Source: Clostridia bacterium
Lineage (GTDB): Bacteria; Bacillota; Clostridia; UBA1212; UBA1255
DNA length: 52,433 nt
NCBI GenBank assembly: GCA_017517275.1
Contig: JAFWZX010000012.1
Coordinates: forward strand, 1-52,433
Reading direction: 5' to 3'
The notes under the pieces were generated by a model. That model made no database searches. It had not been told where the DNA came from and saw only the letters and a list, made by a program, of their open reading frames with translations. The position numbers and the translations under genes are program-made. Positions 14,726 to 26,541 of the stretch are shown one piece after another (position 1 is the stretch's first letter; each line of letters opens with the position of its first letter).

Positions 14726-14754
14726 TTGACTTTGTTCCTTCTATCTTATAAAAT
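14726..14754 (+). promoter_or_regulatory. Promoter of the ANL-PlsC-ACP-LRAT operon
   Basis: TTGACT (14726-14731) and TAAAAT (14749-14754) lie 17 bp apart, about 30 bases before the ATG at 14785. Confidence 0.7.
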
Positions 14755-14784
14755 TACACAGAATATGCTAAAGAAGGATTCTAC

Positions 14785-16746
14785 ATGACTGGAAAATTCC
14801 GCAAATATCTAAACACCAATATTGCCGCACTCAAGAAAAGCACTAAAACCTTTGAAGATATTTACAATATTATGTTCAATGAGGATTCTGCCTTCATTGA
14901 TGACGTTTTCTGTGAAACGTTAGACGGCTACCGTATCAAATCAGTTACGTTCAGAGAGGTTGCTCATCATATAAAAGCCATTGCCTATGGCATTGTGTCA
15001 AAGTACTCAATCTCACACCAATACATCGGCATAGATCTTGATAACGGAGAGAATTGGGTTGCCGCTTTTTGGGCAATATTGATGAGCGGAAACAAGCCTT
15101 TTCTTATAAACAGCCGTCACCCCGTTTCCCTTGAGGAAGGAATGTTCAAAACTTTGAGCATAGAATTCAACGTAGGCAGCAAAAACACAAAGTACTCTCC
15201 CGTACTTCTTAACGTAGAATACCTTGGTTCAGAGCCGTGTCCGTGTGATTTTAAATTTAATTTTGAAAACACCTTTGCTCTTCCTACTTCGGCAACTTCT
15301 CTTAACGAAACCATATGTGTATATTCAGGTCAGGAAATCGCAACGCAGATTCTTAACACTCCGGAGATTATAAAAGAGAGCAAGCAAATTACATCGTTTT
15401 ATAAATCGACTATAAAGCAACTTTGTTTCCTGCCTTTTTACCATATTTTTGGTTTAGGAGCTGTATATTTTTGGTTCTCCTTTTTCGGTGTGACGTTAGT
15501 ATTCCTTAAAGACTATTCACCGGATACCATTTTAAAAACCTGCCGCAGACATCAGGCAACCCACGTCTTTGCAGTACCGCTTCTTTGGCATACTATCGAA
15601 AAGCAGTTGCTTCGCGAAGTAAAAAAAATGGGTGAAAAGCAGCAACGAAAATTCTCAAAAGGAATAAAACTTTCTACGAAGATTCAAAATATATTCCCGC
15701 ACCTTGGTATTAAGATAGCAAAACGTCTGTTCAAAGACGTTCACAAGAAGGTCTTCGGACCAAGTGTACAATTTTGCATAAGCGGAGGAAGCTATATTAA
15801 CGATTCCACATTGGAGATTTTAAACGGCATCGGTCTTCCCTTGCACAACGGTTTTGGAATGAGCGAGATTGGCATAACGTCAGTTGAATTACGAAGCAAG
15901 CCAAAATATCGTAACCAAAACTCCATAGGCCGGCCCTTTTCACAGGTTGAGTATGAGATCAGTTCTGAAGGAACTCTGCTTGTACGCAGCCGTTCCATCT
16001 GCACACAGATTATTGTAAACGGGAAGGTTCAAAACAGCGTAGACGAAAACGGGTGGTTTGACACGGGAGATTTCGCCCGCAAAGACAGCAACGGTTACTA
16101 CTATATCCTCGGGCGCAAAAACGACGTTATTATCGGTGAAAACGGTGAAAATCTTAATCCTGATATTATGGAAAAGCAATTTGCTTCAAGTATTAATTTG
16201 CCATATTGTATTATCAGATACAAAGATAACGACGGTTTTGTTCCTGCCATGATCGTGCAAATCAATAGATATTCAGACAGCGGATATTTGAAGGCTGTCA
16301 TCAATGCCCTGCACAATGCAAACGAATTGCTTCCCATAACAGGAAGAGTTCGCCGATTCTTTTTCACAGAAGATGAGATAGCATCCAAATCAGCGGTCAA
16401 AGTAAGTCGTCAATACGTTCAAAGAGGTATGGAAAACGGCTCAATAAAGCTTATTTCGTCAAACGATATTTTATCTCGCAAGCCTGAGGTTTTTGATGAA
16501 ACACAAGAGCTTGCCGTTAAAATAAAAGAAATTATTAGTAAGGTTTTAAATAAATCTCCGGAAGATATTACAGCAGATTTACACGTTGTTTTTGATTTAG
16601 GCGCTACAAGTCTTGATTATTTTGCAATTATTGGGGAGATTAATTCAGCCTTCGACGTTAATATAAAACTCGATGATGAGAACGGGTGTTATACAGTGCG
16701 TAGCTTCTATGAAAAAATAAAAAAAGAGCTTAATCAAGGGGTTTGA
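14785..16746 (+). CDS. AMP-binding (ANL) acyl-activating enzyme fused to a carrier domain
   Basis: The 653-residue protein is expected to activate a carboxylate as acyl-AMP and load it on a phosphopantetheine arm. The ANL N-domain spans about 30-440: N355-GFGMSE-E361 is motif A5 and GWFDTG-D429 is motif A7; GRKNDVI is the hinge. Lys539 (SKSAVKVSR) fits the A10 lysine. The P-loop A3 motif is strongly degenerate: TSATS (168-172) is followed by LNET where TSGTTGxPK is normal, so the lysine and glycines are missing. A C-terminal carrier domain (about 575-650) has the attachment Ser609 in LGATSLDY. It heads an operon with PlsC, ACP and LRAT genes, so a fatty acid is the likely substrate. Confidence 0.83.
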   Translation: MTGKFRKYLNTNIAALKKSTKTFEDIYNIMFNEDSAFIDDVFCETLDGYRIKSVTFREVAHHIKAIAYGIVSKYSISHQYIGIDLDNGENWVAAFWAILMSGNKPFLINSRHPVSLEEGMFKTLSIEFNVGSKNTKYSPVLLNVEYLGSEPCPCDFKFNFENTFALPTSATSLNETICVYSGQEIATQILNTPEIIKESKQITSFYKSTIKQLCFLPFYHIFGLGAVYFWFSFFGVTLVFLKDYSPDTILKTCRRHQATHVFAVPLLWHTIEKQLLREVKKMGEKQQRKFSKGIKLSTKIQNIFPHLGIKIAKRLFKDVHKKVFGPSVQFCISGGSYINDSTLEILNGIGLPLHNGFGMSEIGITSVELRSKPKYRNQNSIGRPFSQVEYEISSEGTLLVRSRSICTQIIVNGKVQNSVDENGWFDTGDFARKDSNGYYYILGRKNDVIIGENGENLNPDIMEKQFASSINLPYCIIRYKDNDGFVPAMIVQINRYSDSGYLKAVINALHNANELLPITGRVRRFFFTEDEIASKSAVKVSRQYVQRGMENGSIKLISSNDILSRKPEVFDETQELAVKIKEIISKVLNKSPEDITADLHVVFDLGATSLDYFAIIGEINSAFDVNIKLDDENGCYTVRSFYEKIKKELNQGV

Positions 16747-16751
16747 TTCAC

Positions 16752-17420
16752 ATGAAAGAAGAAGAGAGCTTCAGTCGTTTATTTTTAGGATTTGTAAAGT
16801 TCACCGGCTTTTTACCCGGACTTTTGTTGTTTAAGCCTAAAATATACTATGTAAATAAAAAGGCTCAAAGCCGTAAGTTGCCGAGACCTTGTATATTTAT
16901 GTCAAACCACAAATCTCTTATGGATTTTGCATTGTATCTGATTGCCTTTCCGTTTGCATCAATCCGCTTTCTTATGGCTGAGGTTTTATATAATAAGGGG
17001 AAATTTTTTTCCAAATTCCTGTATTGGTTAGGCGGCATACGAGTAGACCGTGATGCATATAATTTTGATTTTGTGGATAAGTCAGTAGATTGTCTGAGCA
17101 GCGGACAAGTTGTTGGTATTTTCCCGGAAGGCAGACTTCCTATTCAAGGGAAAATGTCTCCTTTCAGACCCAGTACCGTAGTCATCGCGCTCAAGGCTAA
17201 TGTTCCTATTATTCCCGTGTATACAGACGGCAACTACGGAATAACAAAGAGAGCTCATATCACCATCGGAGAACCTATTAATCTTACGGATTACCTGGCA
17301 GAAAAAGATGTTCCTGTGGATAAAATAAGCAGAGAAGAAATCAGTCGTCTTAATGATATTCTCAAAGACAAAATTCTAGAATTGAAGGCTTTTTCAGAGG
17401 AAAAAAATGGTAAAAAATAA
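16752..17420 (+). CDS. PlsC-family lysophospholipid/1-acylglycerol-3-phosphate acyltransferase
   Basis: The 222-residue protein carries the two LPLAT motifs that define PlsC: H53-x4-D58 in NHKSLMD (general base) and F124-P-E-G-R128 (phosphate binding). A hydrophobic N-terminal stretch (about 8-30) should sit at the membrane. It would transfer an acyl chain from acyl-ACP or acyl-CoA to a lysolipid or similar alcohol. I use the ATG at 16752, 10 bases after AAGGGG, over the TTG at 16743, which is too close to the ribosome site. It starts 5 bases after the ANL stop; the next PlsC overlaps its end. Confidence 0.86.
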   Translation: MKEEESFSRLFLGFVKFTGFLPGLLLFKPKIYYVNKKAQSRKLPRPCIFMSNHKSLMDFALYLIAFPFASIRFLMAEVLYNKGKFFSKFLYWLGGIRVDRDAYNFDFVDKSVDCLSSGQVVGIFPEGRLPIQGKMSPFRPSTVVIALKANVPIIPVYTDGNYGITKRAHITIGEPINLTDYLAEKDVPVDKISREEISRLNDILKDKILELKAFSEEKNGKK

Positions 17421-18066
17421 ATTTCGGCGCATTTTTAATATAAAAAAAATTCCCATGGATTTAGGGAGGCTTTGCATCTCCGTTCTGCCGCTTTACTATC
17501 GCGTGCGCAAGCATTACGTAAGTGAAGAAGCCCGTAGCAGCCTTAAGCTTGACGACGGTGCGATATTAGTTGCAAATCACACAGGTTTTGCCGATCCGTT
17601 TAAAGTAGGATGCTGCATTTGGCACAGACGAATGCATTTTATTGCGGCAGAAGAAGTTATGAAAAAAGGTCTTATCCATTTGTTACTGAAGGGTATGGGC
17701 TGTATAAAAATACGTCGTAACATTTTCGACATTGAGTGTATCAAAAAGAGCGTAGATTTACTAAAAGACGGCTATCTCCTTGCTATGTTTCCCCAAGGAT
17801 CTATATCGCGCGACGGGTCGTTAGACAGCATAAAATCAGGTGCCGTTCTCATTAGCGCTCAAGCCAAAGTACCTATAATTCCGATTTATTTCAAAAAAAG
17901 GAAAAGTATTTTTCACAGAACGGAAGTTGCCATCGGAGAGAAATTCTATTACAGCGATTATTGCGATAAGAAAATGCCCGGTATGAAAGATATTGAAATC
18001 ATCACCAATGCACTTTTTGAAAAAACGCTGGAATGTAAAAATTTAATAGATAAAAGTGAGGAGTAA
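17407..18066 (+). CDS. Second PlsC-like acyltransferase, altered FPEG motif
   Basis: The 219-residue LPLAT protein has the catalytic H58-x4-D63 (NHTGFAD). Its second motif reads F128-P-Q130-G-S132, with glutamine replacing the nearly invariant glutamate of FPEG; this glutamate binds the acceptor phosphate in PlsC enzymes. The change may mark a non-phosphate acceptor or reduced activity. It starts 14 bases before the first PlsC ends, so the two are probably made in equal amounts and may work in sequence (two acyl chains on one acceptor). The downstream ACP gene starts 3 bases after its stop. Confidence 0.83.
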   Translation: MVKNKFRRIFNIKKIPMDLGRLCISVLPLYYRVRKHYVSEEARSSLKLDDGAILVANHTGFADPFKVGCCIWHRRMHFIAAEEVMKKGLIHLLLKGMGCIKIRRNIFDIECIKKSVDLLKDGYLLAMFPQGSISRDGSLDSIKSGAVLISAQAKVPIIPIYFKKRKSIFHRTEVAIGEKFYYSDYCDKKMPGMKDIEIITNALFEKTLECKNLIDKSEE

Positions 18067-18069
18067 GAA

Positions 18070-18303
18070 ATGACTACGTACGAAAGACTCGTTAATGTTT
18101 TCACAAAGGTTATGGAGGATGACGCAGAGTTATCAAAGCTCAGTCCCGAAGCTGATTTATTTAAAGACTTGCAACTTAATTCCATCGGTCTTTTATATAT
18201 GGCTATTGCTATAGAGGAAGAATTTGGTATTTCATTTAAAAATGAGGATATTAATTCTTTGCGCACCGTAAACGACGTAATTAACTATCTTGAATCCAAA
18301 TAA
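18070..18303 (+). CDS. Dedicated acyl carrier protein
   Basis: The 77-residue acidic protein has the four-helix carrier layout. The attachment site is Ser38 in QLNSIGLLY, where ordinary AcpP has DSLD, so it is a specialised carrier rather than the housekeeping one. A ribosome site (GTGAGGAG) overlaps the end of the PlsC2 gene. Placed between two acyltransferases and an LRAT-like enzyme, it probably carries the acyl group made by the ANL enzyme or delivered by PlsX. Confidence 0.88.
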   Translation: MTTYERLVNVFTKVMEDDAELSKLSPEADLFKDLQLNSIGLLYMAIAIEEEFGISFKNEDINSLRTVNDVINYLESK

Positions 18304-18317
18304 AGTCAGAGGTTTCT

Positions 18318-18740
18318 ATGGAATGGGTTGTTAAAGAGCCGAACCCCGGCGACATTGTAAGAGTAAATATGGGAATTTACCATCATTATGGTATTTTTGA
18401 ATCAGATGACTGCATTATACAGTTTGGGCTTCCAAATAACGTAAGTTGTGATCCGGCAACAATAGAAGTCCTTACTTCAGACGTAAACGTTTTCCTTGGC
18501 ACTGATTCCGAAACCCTACGATTCCTTGAAGTTGCGGAATATTCTCACGAAGAACTGAAAACCAAACGCAAACCAAACGATATTATCGCGTATGCCAAAG
18601 CCAAACTGGGCATGCGCGGCTACGATATCTTACATAACAATTGCGAGCACTTTGTAAACGATTGCGCTTTTGGTGTCTCACACTCATCTTTCATTTCTTC
18701 TGTCAGAGAAAAGATAAAAAACAAATTAAAAGGAAAATAA
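18318..18740 (+). CDS. LRAT/NC-domain thiol acyltransferase-like protein
   Basis: The 140-residue protein has the circularly permuted NlpC/P60 fold of the LRAT/HRASLS (PLAAT) family. It has PGDIVRV near the start, the catalytic His23 in HHYGIF and Cys109 in NNCEHFVNDC. Characterised animal members move an acyl chain from a phospholipid to retinol or an amine (giving N-acyl-ethanolamine lipids); bacterial members are little studied. There is no signal peptide, so it acts at the inner face of the membrane or in the cytoplasm. It ends the ANL-PlsC-PlsC-ACP operon, and an acyl-transfer step fits that setting well. The substrate is not known. Confidence 0.82.
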   Translation: MEWVVKEPNPGDIVRVNMGIYHHYGIFESDDCIIQFGLPNNVSCDPATIEVLTSDVNVFLGTDSETLRFLEVAEYSHEELKTKRKPNDIIAYAKAKLGMRGYDILHNNCEHFVNDCAFGVSHSSFISSVREKIKNKLKGK

Positions 18741-18819
18741 GAAGTTGCTTTTGTCAAGAGGCTAATTTGCATCTTACCATAAATGGCTTACAACTATTGC
18801 GCTTGCGAAAACAAATTTA

Positions 18820-18848
18820 TTGTGGATTTCTTGCAAGTGTAGTATAAT
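18820..18848 (+). promoter_or_regulatory. Promoter of the fakB-fakB-fakA-plsX operon
   Basis: TTGTGG (18820-18825), a 17-bp spacer and a perfect TATAAT (18843-18848). It lies 30 bases before the fakB start and 80 bases after the LRAT stop; I see no terminator in that gap, so read-through from the upstream operon is likely. Confidence 0.78.
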
Positions 18849-18877
18849 GTTTCAGATTATTTTTTATGGAGGCTATT

Positions 18878-19825
18878 ATGAACAGTTATGTAATTATCCC
18901 GGATACTTCTTGCGACTTAACAGCAGATTTAAGGGCACGTTTTGATATTCCCGATTATTTAAGAGGGGTTATAACGTATCCCGACGGACATTCCGAACGA
19001 ATCAATCTGGATTGGGAAAACATTACTCCAACAGAATTCTATGAATCTATGAAGGATAAAAAATCACTGTACAAAACCGGCGCTGTAAATCCTGACGAAG
19101 CACGTGAAATTTTTGAAAAATACCTTTCACAGGGACAAGATATTTTATCTATTTCTCTTTCTTCAGCGCTCAGCAGCACGTATAACGTATGTCTTCAGGC
19201 AGCAAAGCAAGCTTTAGAAAAATATCCCGAGCGTAAGATTATTTGTATTGATTCACTCAGATATTCAACGGCGCTGGCTCTTTTGGTCATTCTTGCCGGC
19301 GAAAAGAAAAAAGAAGGTCTGTCTTTAGAAGAAAATGCAAAATGGGTAGAAGAACATAAGCATTGCATCCACCAGATGGGACCTATGGACGATTTGTTTT
19401 TCCTTTGCAGAACAGGCAGAATCTCAAACTTTAAAGCTTTCTTTGGTTCACTTATAGGTGTTAATCCTATGGCAGATTTTAACAGAAATGGTATGTCAGA
19501 AGTTCTTATTAAGTGTAAAGGAAAGCAAATTGCATTTGATACTACTATCAAATATATGAAAGAAGTCGGCGTTGACCTGAGTAATCAGCTGATGTTTATT
19601 GCTCATTCAAACAGAGCTCAACAAGCCCTCAGACTCGCCGAGCTCGTTAAAGAAAACTTCAATCCTAAAGAAATAATAATAACTGACGTAGGTATGGCCT
19701 GCGGCGCATCAATCGGTCCCGGTCTTTGTGCTGTATATTTCGTCGGAGAACCCATCAGTGAGAACTGCGAAAAAGAAAAAGCCATTATGAAAGCTTTAGA
19801 CGAACAAATAAAAGGGAAAAAATAA
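18878..19825 (+). CDS. fakB: DegV-family fatty-acid-binding protein (FakB), copy 1
   Basis: The 315-residue protein is a DegV-fold lipid binder: IPDTSCDLTADL at the start, SSALSSTYN (ligand head-group site), GRISNFKAFFGSLIGVNP and the GPGL close to the end. FakB presents a bound fatty acid to FakA for phosphorylation. The ATG at 18878 is used because the upstream ATG (18866) overlaps the GGAGG ribosome site. It is followed after 16 bases by a second divergent FakB and then by FakA, so the assignment is firm from context. Two FakBs usually differ in preference for saturated or unsaturated chains; which is which cannot be told here. Confidence 0.92.
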   Translation: MNSYVIIPDTSCDLTADLRARFDIPDYLRGVITYPDGHSERINLDWENITPTEFYESMKDKKSLYKTGAVNPDEAREIFEKYLSQGQDILSISLSSALSSTYNVCLQAAKQALEKYPERKIICIDSLRYSTALALLVILAGEKKKEGLSLEENAKWVEEHKHCIHQMGPMDDLFFLCRTGRISNFKAFFGSLIGVNPMADFNRNGMSEVLIKCKGKQIAFDTTIKYMKEVGVDLSNQLMFIAHSNRAQQALRLAELVKENFNPKEIIITDVGMACGASIGPGLCAVYFVGEPISENCEKEKAIMKALDEQIKGKK

Positions 19826-19841
19826 TAAAGGAGTGTAAACA

Positions 19842-20732
19842 ATGAAAAAATACGTAATTATTGCTGATTCTACTTGTGATCTTGATGCTGATATTCTTAA
19901 ACAATACGACATCGACTATGCAAAGATGGGATACGTTGTAGATGAAAAAGAATACCCGGCAGCTTTGGAGTGGGACGTCATTAGTGCAAATGAGTACTAT
20001 AACATGATGCGCAGTGGCAAAAAAATCAGAACTCTTCAGGTATCCGGAGAGACTTTCAAGGAAAAATTCAATTACTATATAGAACAAAATGTAGATATAC
20101 TCTATATTGGTTGCTCTTCTGCCCTTTCCGGTTCAGTTAATCTGGGAGCTATCATTGCAAGAGATTTAATGGCTGAACACCCCGAAGTAACAATCCGTGT
20201 TATCGACACAAAGATAAGCTCTCTGGGACAAGGACACCTTGTGCTTACTGCAGCAAGGATGAGAGACGAAGGAAAAACATTAGAAGAAGTTGCAGAATAC
20301 ATTGAATCAATTAAACTCACTGTAAACCAGTTTGGTACGGTGGATTCAATGGAGTATCTCAAAAGAGCCGGCAGAATCAAAGCTTCTAAAGCTTTCTTTG
20401 GAAACCTCTTTGGTATAAAGCCTATCATTATTTCCGACGTTATCGGACAGAATTATGCTGTAAAGAAAGTAAAAGGCTCTTATAACAGCAAGTTGGAGAT
20501 AGCAAAATCTGTTGCAGAATGTGTTATCGATTCAGAAAATCAGACGTTATACATTTCCCATGCTGATTGCATCGAAGAAGCAAACGTGCTTCGCCAAGAA
20601 ATACTTAAATTAGCAAAATTCAAAGATGTATACGTAAATTACATTGGACCAATCGTCGGCGCATCTGTTGGTCCCGGTACTCTCATTGCATACTGTGTAG
20701 GTAAGGAAGTTACTATTGAAGGAAAAGAGTGA
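19842..20732 (+). CDS. fakB: DegV-family fatty-acid-binding protein (FakB), copy 2
   Basis: The 296-residue protein is a paralog of the preceding gene: IADSTCDLDADIL, GCSSALSGSVNLG, KRAGRIKASKAFFGNLFGIKP and VGPGTLIAYCVG. Sequence identity between the copies looks modest, so they probably bind different fatty acids. The gene is preceded by AAAGGAG and ends 9 bases before fakA. Confidence 0.92.
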   Translation: MKKYVIIADSTCDLDADILKQYDIDYAKMGYVVDEKEYPAALEWDVISANEYYNMMRSGKKIRTLQVSGETFKEKFNYYIEQNVDILYIGCSSALSGSVNLGAIIARDLMAEHPEVTIRVIDTKISSLGQGHLVLTAARMRDEGKTLEEVAEYIESIKLTVNQFGTVDSMEYLKRAGRIKASKAFFGNLFGIKPIIISDVIGQNYAVKKVKGSYNSKLEIAKSVAECVIDSENQTLYISHADCIEEANVLRQEILKLAKFKDVYVNYIGPIVGASVGPGTLIAYCVGKEVTIEGKE

Positions 20733-20741
20733 TTTTATTAT

Positions 20742-22391
20742 ATGCATTTTACTGAAATCGATGGTGTTTTATTAAAATCCATGCTTTCATCCGGTTATAA
20801 CAACCTGATGAAAAATGTCAAGCTCATAGACTCCCTTAACGTTTTCCCTGTCCCCGACGGAGACACGGGAACTAATATGTCCCTTACTTGGGAAGGCGGT
20901 CTTAGAGCCATCGCTTCAGCGGATGCAAACTTAACAGACGACGTGGATAACTGCCTGCAGTTATTCTCCCGAGGCGCGCTTCTTAATGCGCGGGGGAACT
21001 CAGGCGTTATCCTTTCTCAATTTGTAAAAGGCCTTGCGGATTTTGCTAAGGGTCTGTCAGTTTTTTCCATTGATGACTTTACAGCAGCGCTCGCCTCCGG
21101 CAGCGCAAAAGCTTACGGCTCAGTTATCAAGCCCACAGAAGGCACTATGCTCACTGTCTTGCGTCAGACAGCCGAATACGCAAAGAAAATCCACAACGAC
21201 CACCACCATTTCACACAATTTTTCACAGAAATCGTAGCTGCAATGAAGTCTTCTTTAGAACGCACGCCTGAACTCCTGCCGGTTTTAAAGGAAGCCGGCG
21301 TTGTAGACAGCGGCGGAGCCGGACTGCTTTGCATTTTCGAAGGAATGCTGTGCGCGCTTAACGGAGAAAAAATTGAAGAGGCCAATTTCACCGTCAAACC
21401 GTCTTCAAGCAGCATCGATCCGGCAGCAACCTTCACAAGAAACAGTGTTCTGGAATACGGATATTGTACAGAATTCATTCTGCGCCTGATGGATGCAAAA
21501 GTTGATGTAGATAATTTTGAGATTAAAACAATTATAGGCTTTCTTGAAATACACGGAGACTCCATCGTAGCGATAAAGGACGATGATATTGTAAAGGTTC
21601 ACGTTCACACGTTTACTCCCGGTGAGATTTTAAATTACTGCCAACGCTTCGGCGAATTCATAACGTTAAAAATAGAAAACATGTCTGTACAACACAGCGA
21701 AGCCTCCGTACAATCTTCTCCTAAAAAGAAATACGGTGTTATCGCAGTGTGTAGCGGAGACGGAATAAAAGATTATTTTAGCAGCATCGGTGTTGATTAC
21801 GTGATAAACGGCGGCCAGACACAGAATCCCTCTATGGAGGAATTCATCAAAGCTTATGAAAGCATTAATGCTGACGACATTTTCGTTTTTCCAAATAATT
21901 CCAACATTATTTTAGTCGCAAGACAATCTGCAGAGCATTACAAAGGAGCTGTTATTCATATTATTCCCACGAAGTCCATTGCCGAGGGTTATTCCGCTTT
22001 GTCAATGATGGATTTAAGTCGAGATAATGCAGCAGAAGTCATCGAAGATATGATGTACGCATTAGACAACGTCTCTACAGCACTTGTCTCAATGGCTGTC
22101 AGAGATACAACCTACAACGGAATAGAAATAAAAAAAGATTATTATATCGGATTGGATAAGGATACAATTTATTCCTGCGATGCAGACAGAGTCAATGCCG
22201 CATGCCAGCTTATTGATAAAATAGATAACATTGAAAACAAACAGGTTATTACTCTTTTTTACGGTGAGGACGTTACCGAAGATGAAGTATCTGTTCTTTT
22301 TGACCGAATAAACGAAAAATATCCTTTATTAGAAACAGGTGCCATTTACGGAGGTCAGAAAGTGTATGACTTTATTATGGCAATAGAATAA
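20742..22391 (+). CDS. fakA: Fatty acid kinase catalytic subunit FakA (DAK2/YloV family)
   Basis: The 549-residue length matches FakA. The N-terminal DAK2-like nucleotide domain has NVFPVPDGDTGTNMS (metal/ATP site) and ALLNARGNSGVILSQ; SGGAGL lies at about residues 189-194, and the C-terminal half is the FakB-interacting domain (YGVIAVCSGDGIKDYF and on). FakA phosphorylates FakB-bound fatty acids to acyl-phosphate, the substrate of PlsX and PlsY. Gene order fakB-fakB-fakA-plsX puts the whole route from free fatty acid to acyl-ACP on one transcript. No consensus ribosome site lies at ideal distance; GGAAAAGAG is 13 bases away. Confidence 0.93.
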   Translation: MHFTEIDGVLLKSMLSSGYNNLMKNVKLIDSLNVFPVPDGDTGTNMSLTWEGGLRAIASADANLTDDVDNCLQLFSRGALLNARGNSGVILSQFVKGLADFAKGLSVFSIDDFTAALASGSAKAYGSVIKPTEGTMLTVLRQTAEYAKKIHNDHHHFTQFFTEIVAAMKSSLERTPELLPVLKEAGVVDSGGAGLLCIFEGMLCALNGEKIEEANFTVKPSSSSIDPAATFTRNSVLEYGYCTEFILRLMDAKVDVDNFEIKTIIGFLEIHGDSIVAIKDDDIVKVHVHTFTPGEILNYCQRFGEFITLKIENMSVQHSEASVQSSPKKKYGVIAVCSGDGIKDYFSSIGVDYVINGGQTQNPSMEEFIKAYESINADDIFVFPNNSNIILVARQSAEHYKGAVIHIIPTKSIAEGYSALSMMDLSRDNAAEVIEDMMYALDNVSTALVSMAVRDTTYNGIEIKKDYYIGLDKDTIYSCDADRVNAACQLIDKIDNIENKQVITLFYGEDVTEDEVSVLFDRINEKYPLLETGAIYGGQKVYDFIMAIE

Positions 22392-22411
22392 TTTCCATTA
22401 AGGAGCTAAGT

Positions 22412-23404
22412 ATGAAAAAATATATTATTGATATTTATGGTGCAGATAAAGGCTACAGCACAGTAATCGACGGCGCTTTAGAAGCGCTTGCACAGTTTAG
22501 TGATATACATATCGTTTTATGCGGTGACGAAGAAACAATCCGCACATATCTGTCGGCAAAGAATTATGACACAAGTCGAATCGACGTTATACACGCTCCT
22601 GAGGAAATAACAAATCACGAGCCGCCGACTGTTATTTTTGATAAAAAACAAAATTCTTCTTTAGCTGTCGGAATTAAAATTCTCAAAGAAGATCCCGAGG
22701 CAGTTGCAATGATTTCCCCCGGAAATACCGGCGCCGTTTTAGTAGGCTCTATTTTCAAATTAGGCATGTCCGTGCCTCTTAAGCAACCGGCTTTAGCAAG
22801 TATGCTTCCCTGCCACAACGGCAAATTAGTATGTTTAATCGATTGCGGAGCAAATATGGATTGCAAGCCTGCTCATTTGGCAAAATACGCTATCATGGGA
22901 TCTGTTCTTATGAAATGCCGCAGCGATATTGACAATCCAAAGGTCGGTCTTCTTTCAGTCGGCAAGGAAGAGGGCAAAGGTAACGTACAGACAAAAGAGG
23001 CCTTTGGCTTGATAAAAGAAACCGGAGTGAATTTCGTAGGAAACATAGAAGGAAACGATGTTCTCGCCGGAGACGTCGACGTTGTTGTATGTGACGGTTT
23101 TTCAGGAAACGTCCTTATGAAGAATGCTGAAGCAAACGGCAAAATTGCAATGGGAATGGTAGATGTTCTTCTCGAAAAAGAAGAAAAAGGAAGTCATACG
23201 TATAATACTCTGATTGCTTTACGAGAAAGACTCTTTATGACGTTTGACTTTAACTCCCAAGGCGGAGCAACATTCCTCGGTGTCAATAAAATTCTTATAA
23301 AAGCACACGGAAGCGCTAACAGCAAGACTATCGCCTCCTGCATAAGTCAGGCTCAGATTCTTGAATCAAAAGGCTTTATCGACGCCATGAACCGGGCTTT
23401 ATGA
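22412..23404 (+). CDS. plsX: Phosphate acyltransferase PlsX
   Basis: The 330-residue peripheral enzyme interconverts acyl-ACP and acyl-phosphate. It has SPGNTGAVLVGS, LIDCGANMDCKPAHLAKYA and DVVVCDGFSGNVLMKN, all classic PlsX. The N-terminus is unusual: the normal VDAMGGDxAP reads IDIYGADKGYS here, though flanking residues (VIDGALEAL, VLCGDEETI) align. The ribosome site AAGGAG is 8 bases from the ATG. The last 29 bases overlap the end of the convergent glycosyltransferase gene. plsX is usually followed by acpP and fab genes; here it is linked instead to fakA/fakB, which suggests that it mainly handles imported or recycled fatty acids. Confidence 0.92.
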   Translation: MKKYIIDIYGADKGYSTVIDGALEALAQFSDIHIVLCGDEETIRTYLSAKNYDTSRIDVIHAPEEITNHEPPTVIFDKKQNSSLAVGIKILKEDPEAVAMISPGNTGAVLVGSIFKLGMSVPLKQPALASMLPCHNGKLVCLIDCGANMDCKPAHLAKYAIMGSVLMKCRSDIDNPKVGLLSVGKEEGKGNVQTKEAFGLIKETGVNFVGNIEGNDVLAGDVDVVVCDGFSGNVLMKNAEANGKIAMGMVDVLLEKEEKGSHTYNTLIALRERLFMTFDFNSQGGATFLGVNKILIKAHGSANSKTIASCISQAQILESKGFIDAMNRAL

Positions 23405-24392
23405 GCTTTAACAGGAAATACTCAATAGGAGCCGCTATAATAACCGCAAGACTATGTGCCAAAAAAAGCGGCCAACCTAACAGCTTAAACGGATAACAAA
23501 TACTCATAACTATAGAAAATCTAATTGCGGCAAACAAGAAGAATCTTCCTGTTATCTGGTAGTGTACCTTTCTGAAAATAAAAAATTTATTCAAGAACCA
23601 ACATACCATTGCACTTACCATATATACCATAGGTACTGTTCTTAGCCAACTATTCCAGCCAAGGAAAATCGTAATTAAAATAAGACACAGTTGAATGTTG
23701 GCAAAAGAAATCAAAGTAGCGCTGGCTGTTTTAAACATTTTCTTATAAATCCGTATAGTATCTTTTACGGGATTGAAATGAGAAGAACTGTTGCCGTCAA
23801 GATATACCGTTTCAATCGGCACTTCTGTAATTCTTATCTTCTGCCTGTCTATAAACATTAGTACGTTCATTTCATAATCATACTTGTCTCCTTCAACGTT
23901 AACAAGCCATGGGATATATTCTACCTTAAAGCCGCGAAGCCCGGACTGGTTATCATGAAGGTAATGACCGGTAAGCATAGAAAAAACAATTCTCGATAAG
24001 CTATTGCCGAACCTTGATCTAAAAGGCACGTTCCCCTTAAGACCTCTAACCGTAAGTACAAACTCACGGCCTGCTTGTAATTGCTCACGCACACGACAAA
24101 TATCCTTTACAAGATGCTGTCCGTCACTATCTGCAGTAACAAAATACTCCGCATTCGGGAAATGTTCGCAAAGAGCGCGCATAGCATTTTTGAGAGTAGC
24201 GCCTTTACCCATATTATGAGGATTGTGAAGTACAACAGCATATGGCTCTACTTGTTCAAAGAAAGTAGAATAAGCCTCTCCGCTGCCATCGTCCACAACC
24301 AATATATCAAAATTTTCTTCTTTAAGCTCCTTAACCAAGCTCACCATTTTATCATCCGGCTTGTAAGCAGGAATGACAGCTACTGTTTGCAT
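23376..24392 (-). CDS. GT2 glycosyltransferase with C-terminal GtrA-like membrane domain
   Basis: The 338-residue protein has a DPM1-like GT-A domain (about 1-215; VIPAYKPDD, VDDGSG, HNMGKGATLKNAM, TADSDGQH) followed by a GtrA-type domain of four helices (about 220-335). It would make a polyprenyl-phosphate sugar and may help flip it. GT2-GtrA fusions of this kind are common in Clostridia. The ribosome site TGGAGAAG precedes the ATG. It runs convergently to plsX and overlaps it by 29 bp. It is the second lipid-linked sugar synthase in the window and may feed the GT-C enzymes of the pepF operon or a glycolipid made by the neighbouring acyl genes. Confidence 0.87.
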   Translation of the reverse strand: MQTVAVIPAYKPDDKMVSLVKELKEENFDILVVDDGSGEAYSTFFEQVEPYAVVLHNPHNMGKGATLKNAMRALCEHFPNAEYFVTADSDGQHLVKDICRVREQLQAGREFVLTVRGLKGNVPFRSRFGNSLSRIVFSMLTGHYLHDNQSGLRGFKVEYIPWLVNVEGDKYDYEMNVLMFIDRQKIRITEVPIETVYLDGNSSSHFNPVKDTIRIYKKMFKTASATLISFANIQLCLILITIFLGWNSWLRTVPMVYMVSAMVCWFLNKFFIFRKVHYQITGRFFLFAAIRFSIVMSICYPFKLLGWPLFLAHSLAVIIAAPIEYFLLKLIKPGSWRR

Positions 24393-24549: not shown

Positions 24550-25533
24550 ATGGCAAAACTCTTTGAAAATACTAATAAAACATGCTCTATTATTAAAGAC
24601 TGTGACTTTTGCACAGAAATGACTAAAATAGAAAAAAAACTATCCGAATACGTCACCCGCGGTTATTTTGAAACCTTCGACGGCAATAAAATGGAATATG
24701 AATTTTATAAAGTTGCTCGCCCCATGGCTAACTTAGTTATTTCTCACGGCTTTACAGAATTTATGGAAAAGTACCAAGAAATGGTTTGGTATTTTGTTAA
24801 TATGGGTTATAACGTTTTCCTTCTTTCCCACAGAGGACATGGCGACTCATACAGGATCTTTGACGATTATCAACTGACTCATATAGACTCCTTTTACGAT
24901 TACGTAGAAGATTTTACTTGCTTTATAGACAAGATTTTCCTGCCCAACATGGACCCCGACATACCGAATTATATGTTTTCACATTCAATGGGCGGCAGTA
25001 TTATTGCATTATACCTGTCTAAACATCACGATATTTTCAGCAAAGCTATCTTCTCCGCGCCCATGGTATGCCCTATAACCGCAGGACTTCCCAGGATACT
25101 TACAAAATTCTTCGCAATGAAGGAAATCCGCAAATCCGGACCACAGAGCCCGTTTAAATACTCAACACCTTTTACAGCAACTCCTCCTATTGACCCAGAT
25201 CCGTGCCTTAGCCGCGAGCGCTTCGTATATCATCTGGATAAACGTATAAACAATTGTAAATATCAAAACAGCGTTCCTACCAACACCTGGCTATACGAAT
25301 CAGTAAATCTGCAGCCGAAGGTTTACAAATGTGCAGGTAAAATCACTGCAAATTGTCTGCTTTTATTAGCAGAAACCGATACAGTTGTACGGACAAAACC
25401 ACAGCATGCTTTTTTCAAAAGGCTTCCCAACGCAAAGATGGTAACGCTAAAGAACACTCGTCATTCCGTACTTACCCTGCGGTCGGATATTTTCGAATCA
25501 TACATGAATGAGGTCTTTGCTTTTCTTTCATAA
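24550..25533 (+). CDS. Alpha/beta hydrolase, lysophospholipase (PldB/monoglyceride lipase) type
   Basis: The 327-residue protein has the serine-hydrolase plan: ISHGFTEFMEKY (oxyanion region), LSHRGHGDSYR, nucleophile Ser146 in FSHSMGGS, acid Asp277 (ETDTVV) and His305 (TRHSVL). This fits PldB and monoacylglycerol lipases, which hydrolyse lysolipids or monoglycerides. It has no signal peptide. Its place just beyond the fak/plsX operon suggests that it releases fatty acids for FakB or trims lysolipids; that link is inference. A partial ribosome site (GCAGG) precedes the ATG. Confidence 0.85.
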   Translation: MAKLFENTNKTCSIIKDCDFCTEMTKIEKKLSEYVTRGYFETFDGNKMEYEFYKVARPMANLVISHGFTEFMEKYQEMVWYFVNMGYNVFLLSHRGHGDSYRIFDDYQLTHIDSFYDYVEDFTCFIDKIFLPNMDPDIPNYMFSHSMGGSIIALYLSKHHDIFSKAIFSAPMVCPITAGLPRILTKFFAMKEIRKSGPQSPFKYSTPFTATPPIDPDPCLSRERFVYHLDKRINNCKYQNSVPTNTWLYESVNLQPKVYKCAGKITANCLLLLAETDTVVRTKPQHAFFKRLPNAKMVTLKNTRHSVLTLRSDIFESYMNEVFAFLS

Positions 25534-25584: not shown

Positions 25585-26541
25585 ATGAAGCCACTGATTC
25601 TTTTAATTATAATTGTCCTATCTTTACTTGTTGTTGTAGGGGTTCCTATAGTTATAATGTTTAAGATTACTATTCCCATCGCAAAGAAGGTTTGCAGAGA
25701 CACGTTAGTTAAGACTTCACCTGACAAGTGGGGTCGTGTATGTTCTGCACCTGATAACGAGGAGCAGGTTGCCATGTGGAGAAGCGGCATAAAGTGGGCT
25801 GAACTTCACCGTGAAAAGATGCGGGAAGTGTCCATTGTTAACGACGGTTTAAAGCTTGTTGGCGAATATTACGATTTCGGCAGTGACCGCTGCGTACTTA
25901 TTGTTCCCGGCAGATGCGAATGTCTTATGTATTCATATTTCTACGCACAAACGTATACAGGCCGCACAAACGTACTTGTTTTTGATTCTCGTTCACACGG
26001 TTTAAGTCAGGGAGACCGCTCATATTTAGGCTTCAAAGAAAATGAAGATTTGTTAAAATGTGCAGAATTTGCTCATGATGAATTGGGAAATAAAGAGATT
26101 TATCTTCACGGAATATGTATCGGCGCCGCAACGGCTGTACAAGCTTTGACCTTGGATTCAACGCAACCTTATATTACAAAACTCATATTAGACGGTTGTT
26201 ATACTACTTTCTATGAGACGTTTAAAAATCATATGATTTACGATAACAGACCTGTTCACCCTGTTATCGACGAGATCAGATGTATTCTTAAGAAAGAAAT
26301 CGGCGTTGATATGAAGAAACAGGGACCGATTTATCTTATTCATAAGGTAAAAGTGTCTACGCTCTTCCTATCAACATCATTAGACAAGTTTTCACTTCCG
26401 GAGAAGACGATAGAACTCTTTAACAAATGCGCAAGCAGTGACAAGCATTTAGTTTGGTTTGACAAAGGTGCTCATTCACACGTTAGAATAAATAATGAAG
26501 AAAAGTACGACGAAGCAGTATTAAATTTCATCGGATTATAA
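25585..26541 (+). CDS. Membrane-anchored alpha/beta hydrolase with Cys in the nucleophile position
   Basis: The protein has 318 residues with an N-terminal membrane helix (about 3-25) and then an S33/DUF-type alpha/beta hydrolase domain: VIVPG-like LIVPGRCEC, FDSRSHGLSQG, the nucleophile elbow HGICIGA, acid Asp267 (STSLDKFSLP) and His297 (GAHSHV). The elbow residue is Cys178 (TGT codon) where Ser is the rule (GxSxGA). A cysteine nucleophile is known in dienelactone hydrolase, so the protein may be active with a different substrate, or may be a binding protein. It follows the first hydrolase after 51 bases and precedes the deacetylase by 13; these probably form one operon. Confidence 0.8.
   Translation: MKPLILLIIIVLSLLVVVGVPIVIMFKITIPIAKKVCRDTLVKTSPDKWGRVCSAPDNEEQVAMWRSGIKWAELHREKMREVSIVNDGLKLVGEYYDFGSDRCVLIVPGRCECLMYSYFYAQTYTGRTNVLVFDSRSHGLSQGDRSYLGFKENEDLLKCAEFAHDELGNKEIYLHGICIGAATAVQALTLDSTQPYITKLILDGCYTTFYETFKNHMIYDNRPVHPVIDEIRCILKKEIGVDMKKQGPIYLIHKVKVSTLFLSTSLDKFSLPEKTIELFNKCASSDKHLVWFDKGAHSHVRINNEEKYDEAVLNFIGL

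Follow-up and report, generated by a model that had tools for sequence, protein, structure and literature searches.

Several bacterial systems have been described that partly resemble the locus analysed here. For instance, the AcpB system of Enterococcus faecalis combines a fatty acid kinase and PlsX with an atypical second acyl carrier protein (ACP) and probably serves the use of exogenous fatty acids (PMC6509188). The acyl-phosphate that is made by FakAB has two fates: PlsY uses it to attach the first acyl chain to glycerol-3-phosphate, and PlsX converts it to acyl-ACP (PMC6509188). In E. coli, the LplT-Aas system is active in lysophospholipid remodelling and relies on an MFS transporter, an ANL acyl-ACP synthetase and a PlsC-type acyltransferase (PMC11416262). 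Moreover, the LRAT/PLAAT (HRASLS) enzymes (PF04970) adopt a permuted NlpC/P60 fold, and LRATs have been described as Cys-His-His enzymes (PMC10318531). The lipoprotein N-acyltransferase LnsA from Staphylococcus belongs to the same superfamily and also catalyses acyl transfer; its export is predicted, and it requires LnsB as a membrane partner (PMC7387801).

The locus compared with these systems is located in a window of 52,433 nucleotides, which is a whole contig (bases 1-52433) of a Clostridia genome of 1.59 Mb and 80% completeness (Table 1). Like the AcpB system, it encodes a fatty acid kinase, PlsX and an additional ACP and is probably involved in the use of exogenous fatty acids. However, PlsX itself is duplicated here, and the ACP is accompanied by two PlsC proteins, a carrier-fused ANL enzyme and an LRAT, none of which belongs to the AcpB system. 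The cluster shares the pairing of ANL and PlsC functions with LplT-Aas; an MFS transporter is encoded in many relatives. In contrast to LplT-Aas, these functions are encoded by separate genes, there are two PlsC proteins, the ANL enzyme has its own carrier, and an extra ACP, an LRAT and, in relatives, a phosphopantetheinyl transferase are present; the transporter belongs to the MFS_2/GPH group and is absent from the window locus. A single Aas protein uniting PlsC and the synthetase was not found in the cluster, where the Aas models scored at most 59-73 bits against cut-offs of more than 880. The window LRAT has the permuted fold, His23, Cys109 and the NCEHF motif of the LRAT/PLAAT enzymes, whereas the third triad residue of the cluster proteins is Gln, Ala or Glu instead of His, the window protein has no transmembrane tail, and the cluster LRATs are linked to an ACP and, in relatives, fused to a phosphopantetheinyl transferase. 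Unlike LnsA, the window LRAT is encoded beside cytosolic acyl-ACP enzymes and contains neither a hydrophobic signal nor a transmembrane stretch, the maximum 19-residue hydropathy being 0.92. Lipoprotein N-acylation in the manner of LnsA was rejected because an export or membrane segment is missing.

Table 1 Genes of the window locus and its downstream neighbours
Feature	Position	Strand	Profile match or remark
ANL1, acyl-adenylate-forming enzyme with C-terminal carrier domain, 653 aa	14785..16746	+	AMP-binding 89.9 bits, PP-binding 32 bits
PlsC1, 1-acylglycerol-phosphate/lysolipid acyltransferase family	16752..17420	+	Acyltransferase PF01553 64.9 bits
PlsC2, second PlsC-family acyltransferase	17407..18066	+	PF01553 73.1 bits
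Dedicated small acyl carrier protein, 77 aa	18070..18303	+	PP-binding 38.4 bits
LRAT-fold Cys-His enzyme, 140 aa	18318..18740	+	PF04970 63.6 bits vs cut-off 24.3
FakB-type (DegV) fatty-acid-binding protein 1	18878..19825	+	DegV 167.5 bits
FakB-type (DegV) fatty-acid-binding protein 2	19842..20732	+	DegV 195.3 bits
FakA/YloV fatty acid kinase	20742..22391	+	Dak2, FakA-like_M, FakA-like_C; YloV model 555 bits vs cut-off 396
Second, cluster-specific PlsX (acyl-phosphate:ACP acyltransferase)	22412..23404	+	plsX equivalog 283.6 bits vs cut-off 243.4
GT2-family glycosyltransferase, convergent	23376..24392	-	Often adjoins PlsX in relatives
Alpha/beta hydrolase AB1, lysophospholipase L2-like	24550..25533	+	Hydrolase_4 132.6 bits
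Alpha/beta hydrolase AB2	25585..26541	+	Relatives adjoin FakA, FakB or ANL1 in many loci

An earlier note on this DNA had described nine genes in a row on the plus strand, forming two operons with two promoters and no terminator between them. Nine intact genes (14785-23404) are indeed present on this strand, at the positions given previously or a few codons away; for PlsC1, ATG 16752 is the more suitable start codon, and for the first FakB it is ATG 18878, which follows GGAGG. The gene identities proposed in the note agree with the Pfam and NCBIfam profiles in each case. Pfam matches above the curated cut-offs are AMP-binding with PP-binding, two Acyltransferase domains, PP-binding and LRAT for genes 1-5, and two DegV domains, Dak2/FakA and FA_synthesis (PlsX) for genes 6-9. 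The FakA, FakB and PlsX components also exceed the cut-offs of the YloV, DegV domain and plsX models, respectively. The named FakA (VfrB) equivalog (458 bits, cut-off 975) and the FakB1 equivalog (72.6 for FakB 1 and 114.3 bits, cut-off 350) were not matched, and the proteins are homologues outside the curated equivalogs. Genes 1-5 overlap or are spaced by at most 14 bases, and a gap of 137 bases separates the LRAT gene from the first FakB gene. A terminator-like site was not found between the two groups. In relatives they are separate units, the FakB-FakB-FakA-PlsX group being often inverted or moved with respect to the five-gene group. The promoter evidence was rejected because the 26 promoter-like sites correspond to the chance level observed in shuffled sequences (26.8 +/- 4.8). 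A role in anti-phage defence was discarded, as there was no PADLOC match.

The genes for the ANL-carrier enzyme, PlsC1, PlsC2, ACP and LRAT form a conserved five-gene unit. When GTDB genomes were scanned with an alignment of LRAT sequences, 476 relatives were found, of which the best 80 loci were fetched; profiles built from the window and the first relatives were then run over all open reading frames of these loci. The best 80 loci are derived mostly from MAGs from herbivore gut and rumen and belong to Clostridia, Oscillospiraceae, some Lachnospiraceae, three Acholeplasmatales and one Erysipelotrichaceae. Together with the window, they provided 66 assessable loci, which contain an LRAT and at least 4.5 kb of upstream sequence. 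The gene directly preceding LRAT encodes the ACP in 60 of the 66 loci, and in 52 of them the four partners all lie upstream of LRAT and share its strand. Thus, the proposed neighbourhood survey bears out the idea that the five genes are kept together, as far as this LRAT branch is concerned. The Clostridia LRATs from outside the cluster belong to a different branch, in which the third His is the ordinary one. When the class was sampled evenly, a full-length LRAT was found in 15 of 391 genomes, 7 of which have it in the cluster and 8 without such neighbours. The loci from Acholeplasmatales and Erysipelotrichaceae are exceptions with other neighbours. In the three Acholeplasmatales (L133, L159, L160), a close relative of LRAT occurs in another conserved setting that includes no ACP or acyltransferases; a zinc-ribbon-like protein is encoded downstream in all three, and two small proteins precede and a ROK-like kinase follows the gene in L133 and L160. 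There is also a version of the core without LRAT, which consists of FakB, FakA, MFS_2, ANL1, PlsC1 and the AB2 hydrolase (L052-L054). Moreover, three loci of family f47 (L055, L058, L059) possess a fused PlsC1-PlsC2 together with ANL1, FakB, FakA and a hydrolase and contain no LRAT; the respective genomes possess FabF.

The LRAT enzymes of the cluster differ from the described family members in their active site. The His23/Cys109 pair is present in all 82 cluster LRATs, and the third position of the triad, which is Gln in the window protein, is occupied by Gln in 65, Ala in 13 and Glu in 4 of them. His was never found at this position, so none of the 82 proteins has a Cys-His-His triad, while the third His is kept in 8/8 LRATs from elsewhere in Clostridia. 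An AlphaFold model of the window LRAT (pLDDT 86) matches PLAAT3 (E 7.5e-7) and HRASLS2; a further match (E 4.9e-4) is 8iuf_E7, a subunit of the respiratory supercomplex of Euglena. A separate and probably exported kind of Clostridia LRAT is represented by L174, L175 and L177; these proteins comprise about 270 amino acids and have an N-terminal hydrophobic segment and the canonical third His.

LRAT is linked to the carrier in a further way. In 34 of the 66 assessable loci, a phosphopantetheinyl transferase of the Sfp/AcpS type (PF01648, 42.6 bits in L014) is fused to the C-terminus of LRAT, and a separate transferase is encoded nearby in 14 more. The Sfp-type Asp/Glu/Trp/Lys motif residues are kept in the fused domains, and the fusion is the sole PF01648 protein found in one genome that is 92% complete (G020). 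The window locus does not encode such a transferase; its genome has a single Sfp-type enzyme of 197 amino acids elsewhere. The phosphopantetheine attachment residue Ser38 of the ACP is invariant (74/74 relatives). That a carrier-activating enzyme is joined to LRAT, right next to the gene for the carrier, provides the best indication that LRAT works together with this carrier.

Two architectures can be distinguished by the way in which the ACP would be loaded. In the branch to which the window belongs, FakB-FakB-FakA-PlsX is part of the locus and a second ligase is missing. In the other branch, a stand-alone canonical ANL ligase (ANL2) is encoded between PlsC2 and ACP, there is no PlsX in the locus, and an MFS_2 transporter is usually present. 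Among 90 loci, a few of which are duplicates of one genome, 46 contain only ANL2, 29 contain only PlsX and none contains both. As the LRAT tree separates the PlsX-type from the ANL2-type branch in a nearly single split, this exclusion is taken as one substitution of the ACP-loading step and not many. FakA is encoded near the five-gene unit in 34 of the 66 assessable loci, and FakAB recurs beside units of both types. In a tree, the cluster PlsX stands apart, with 100/99 support, from nine PlsX proteins of the housekeeping or reference type, and it is the second PlsX in most of these genomes, including that of the window, in which the housekeeping gene is located on another contig in the order fapR-like, plsX, acpP, rnc. 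In the ANL2-type genome G020, the order is fapR-like, acpP, rnc (L223:8849-9750), and a PlsX was not found in this genome; the comparison with the window genome (L221:10526-13043) indicates a clean apparent loss of the housekeeping plsX. The view that FakAB feeds a dedicated carrier, which had been put forward in the earlier note, thus gains support from the separate PlsX clade and from the fusions between LRAT and the phosphopantetheinyl transferase.

The remaining enzymes of the unit appear catalytically intact. In ANL1, the A10-type Lys538 and Arg541 are conserved in 70/70, Asp428 and Arg443 each in 69/69 and the carrier residue Ser608 in 71/71 relatives. Its glycine-rich P-loop (TSATSLNET) has diverged from that of ordinary ligases, and ANL1 may use a substrate other than a fatty acid. 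A paralogue with about 34% identity is encoded alone and away from the cluster in both genomes of the genus (L061:7013-8884 in the window's genome and L060:9078-10823). The HX4D motifs are conserved in PlsC1 (His53 and Asp58, 72/72) and in PlsC2 (His58 and Asp63, 74/74), and both proteins are fused in some relatives, as in the 465-aa double-PlsC protein of L055. Among the accessory genes, AB1 recurs in the neighbourhoods and scores 122.9 bits, which is below the cut-off, with the lysophospholipase L2 model. The GT2 glycosyltransferase recurs beside the cluster PlsX across families. An MFS_2 protein is encoded in 33 of 90 neighbourhoods; its model is nearest to the lysolipid transporter MFSD2A, with MelB being almost equal, and a distant sequence search of the PDB with the protein and its profile gave no match. 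Import of lysolipids by MFS_2 is therefore only a hint.

Many of the hosts seem to depend on external fatty acids. The FabF-type ketosynthase (PF02801) was the single FASII gene searched in these incomplete MAGs; 53 of the 60 cluster genomes lack it, compared with 108 of 391 across the class, and many of the cluster hosts are therefore probably fatty-acid auxotrophs. FabF is present in seven cluster genomes and several LRAT-less relatives also lack it; the loss of FabF is thus a lineage trait that fits the cluster without defining it, and its use as a mark of the cluster alone was rejected. PlsY occurs in 65 of 70 genomes examined, which led us to reject the idea that the hosts have no acyl-phosphate route. 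The window organism retains a FapR-like gene besides its housekeeping plsX-acpP.

On balance, the best explanation, and a somewhat probable one, is in our view a conserved system by which acyl chains from outside the cell are put to use. From the gene set and its conservation, the intact catalytic residues, the fold, the PlsX clade, the fusions and the scarcity of FabF, we infer every reaction, the direction of transfer by LRAT and the product. FakB would bind exogenous fatty acids that are available in free form or are liberated by the lysophospholipase-like hydrolases encoded nearby, FakA would phosphorylate them, and the cluster-specific PlsX would transfer the acyl group from acyl-phosphate to the dedicated ACP, a step for which the sister branch would employ the stand-alone ANL ligase. 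ANL1 would load a second acyl group onto its own fused carrier, and the Sfp-type transferase, which is fused to LRAT in many relatives, would activate the carrier. Acyl-ACP is used by PlsC, and PlsC1 and PlsC2 are predicted to acylate glycerolipid or lysolipid acceptors. LRAT may act with the same ACP, forming an acyl-Cys intermediate and passing acyl groups between the ACP and a lipid acceptor, either from the ACP to the lipid or from the lipid to the ACP. The result would be a private acyl-ACP pool that is filled from outside acyl chains and spent through the two PlsC proteins and LRAT. As PlsY is nearly universal and FabF mostly missing, most of the genes can be accounted for if scavenged acyl chains are built into ordinary phospholipids.

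A narrower proposal, which we make tentatively and at less than even confidence, is that the new LRAT branch, with its changed triad and its fusion or linkage to the phosphopantetheinyl transferase, represents an acyl-ACP-dependent transacylase. Such an enzyme could move acyl chains of membrane lipids straight to the ACP without ATP, or it could add an extra acyl chain to a lipid that is itself made from scavenged fatty acids, in both cases in Clostridia without their own fatty acid elongation. Alternatively, LRAT might simply be a hydrolase, that is, a PLAAT-like phospholipase A/lysophospholipase or an acyl-ACP thioesterase, which frees chains for FakAB so that the operon re-uses them. The nearest solved folds are PLAAT phospholipases, a bacterial effector with the permuted NlpC/P60 fold has phospholipase activity (PMC12994826), and lysophospholipase-like genes are found nearby. 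We nevertheless regard a hydrolase as unlikely, because the transferase fusion and the adjacency of the ACP suggest the carrier as partner, the cluster already has alpha/beta hydrolases, and the third His is replaced in every cluster LRAT.

The earlier note had also proposed that PlsC1, PlsC2 and LRAT, the latter as an N- or O-acyltransferase, make a specialised lipid outside the phosphatidic-acid route, for example an N-acylated or triacylated one. The movement of free fatty acids onto a dedicated carrier is supported by our analysis, but such a product, although possible, receives no direct support. The presence of three acyltransferase-type enzymes, a dedicated ACP and an Sfp-type activator is typical of specialised acyl pathways, housekeeping PlsX and PlsY are kept in many cluster genomes, and permuted NlpC/P60 enzymes include N-acyltransferases such as HRASLS/PLAAT and LnsA (PMC7387801). 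However, the gene set contains no conserved enzyme for a head group, a backbone or export, scavenging is indicated by FakAB, by the genes resembling lysophospholipases and by the rare occurrence of FabF, and core versions without LRAT occur, which makes a specialised lipid a rather unlikely product. It is still less probable that the two operons are neighbours merely by history, the five-gene unit being independent and FakB-FakB-FakA-PlsX being an ordinary operon for fatty acid use. Although relatives differ in the orientation or place of the second unit with respect to the first, which often occurs with no FakAB nearby, the cluster PlsX is a distinct clade that was found only beside this system in the set examined, FakAB accompanies both types of the unit and PlsX is missing from every ANL2 locus.

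To our knowledge, membrane formation in those gut and rumen Clostridia that do not synthesise fatty acids is largely unstudied, and we know of no previous assignment of acyl movement between lipids and ACP to the LRAT family. The literature searched contains no description of the gene combination, the LRAT-transferase fusion or the altered triad, and no relevant paper on LRAT with an ACP or a phosphopantetheinyl transferase. The cluster offers a defined and testable gene set and, with acyl-ACP, a probable partner for a bacterial LRAT. If LRAT indeed shuttles acyl groups between a lipid and the ACP, this would, as far as we know, be a chemistry that is new to the LRAT family.
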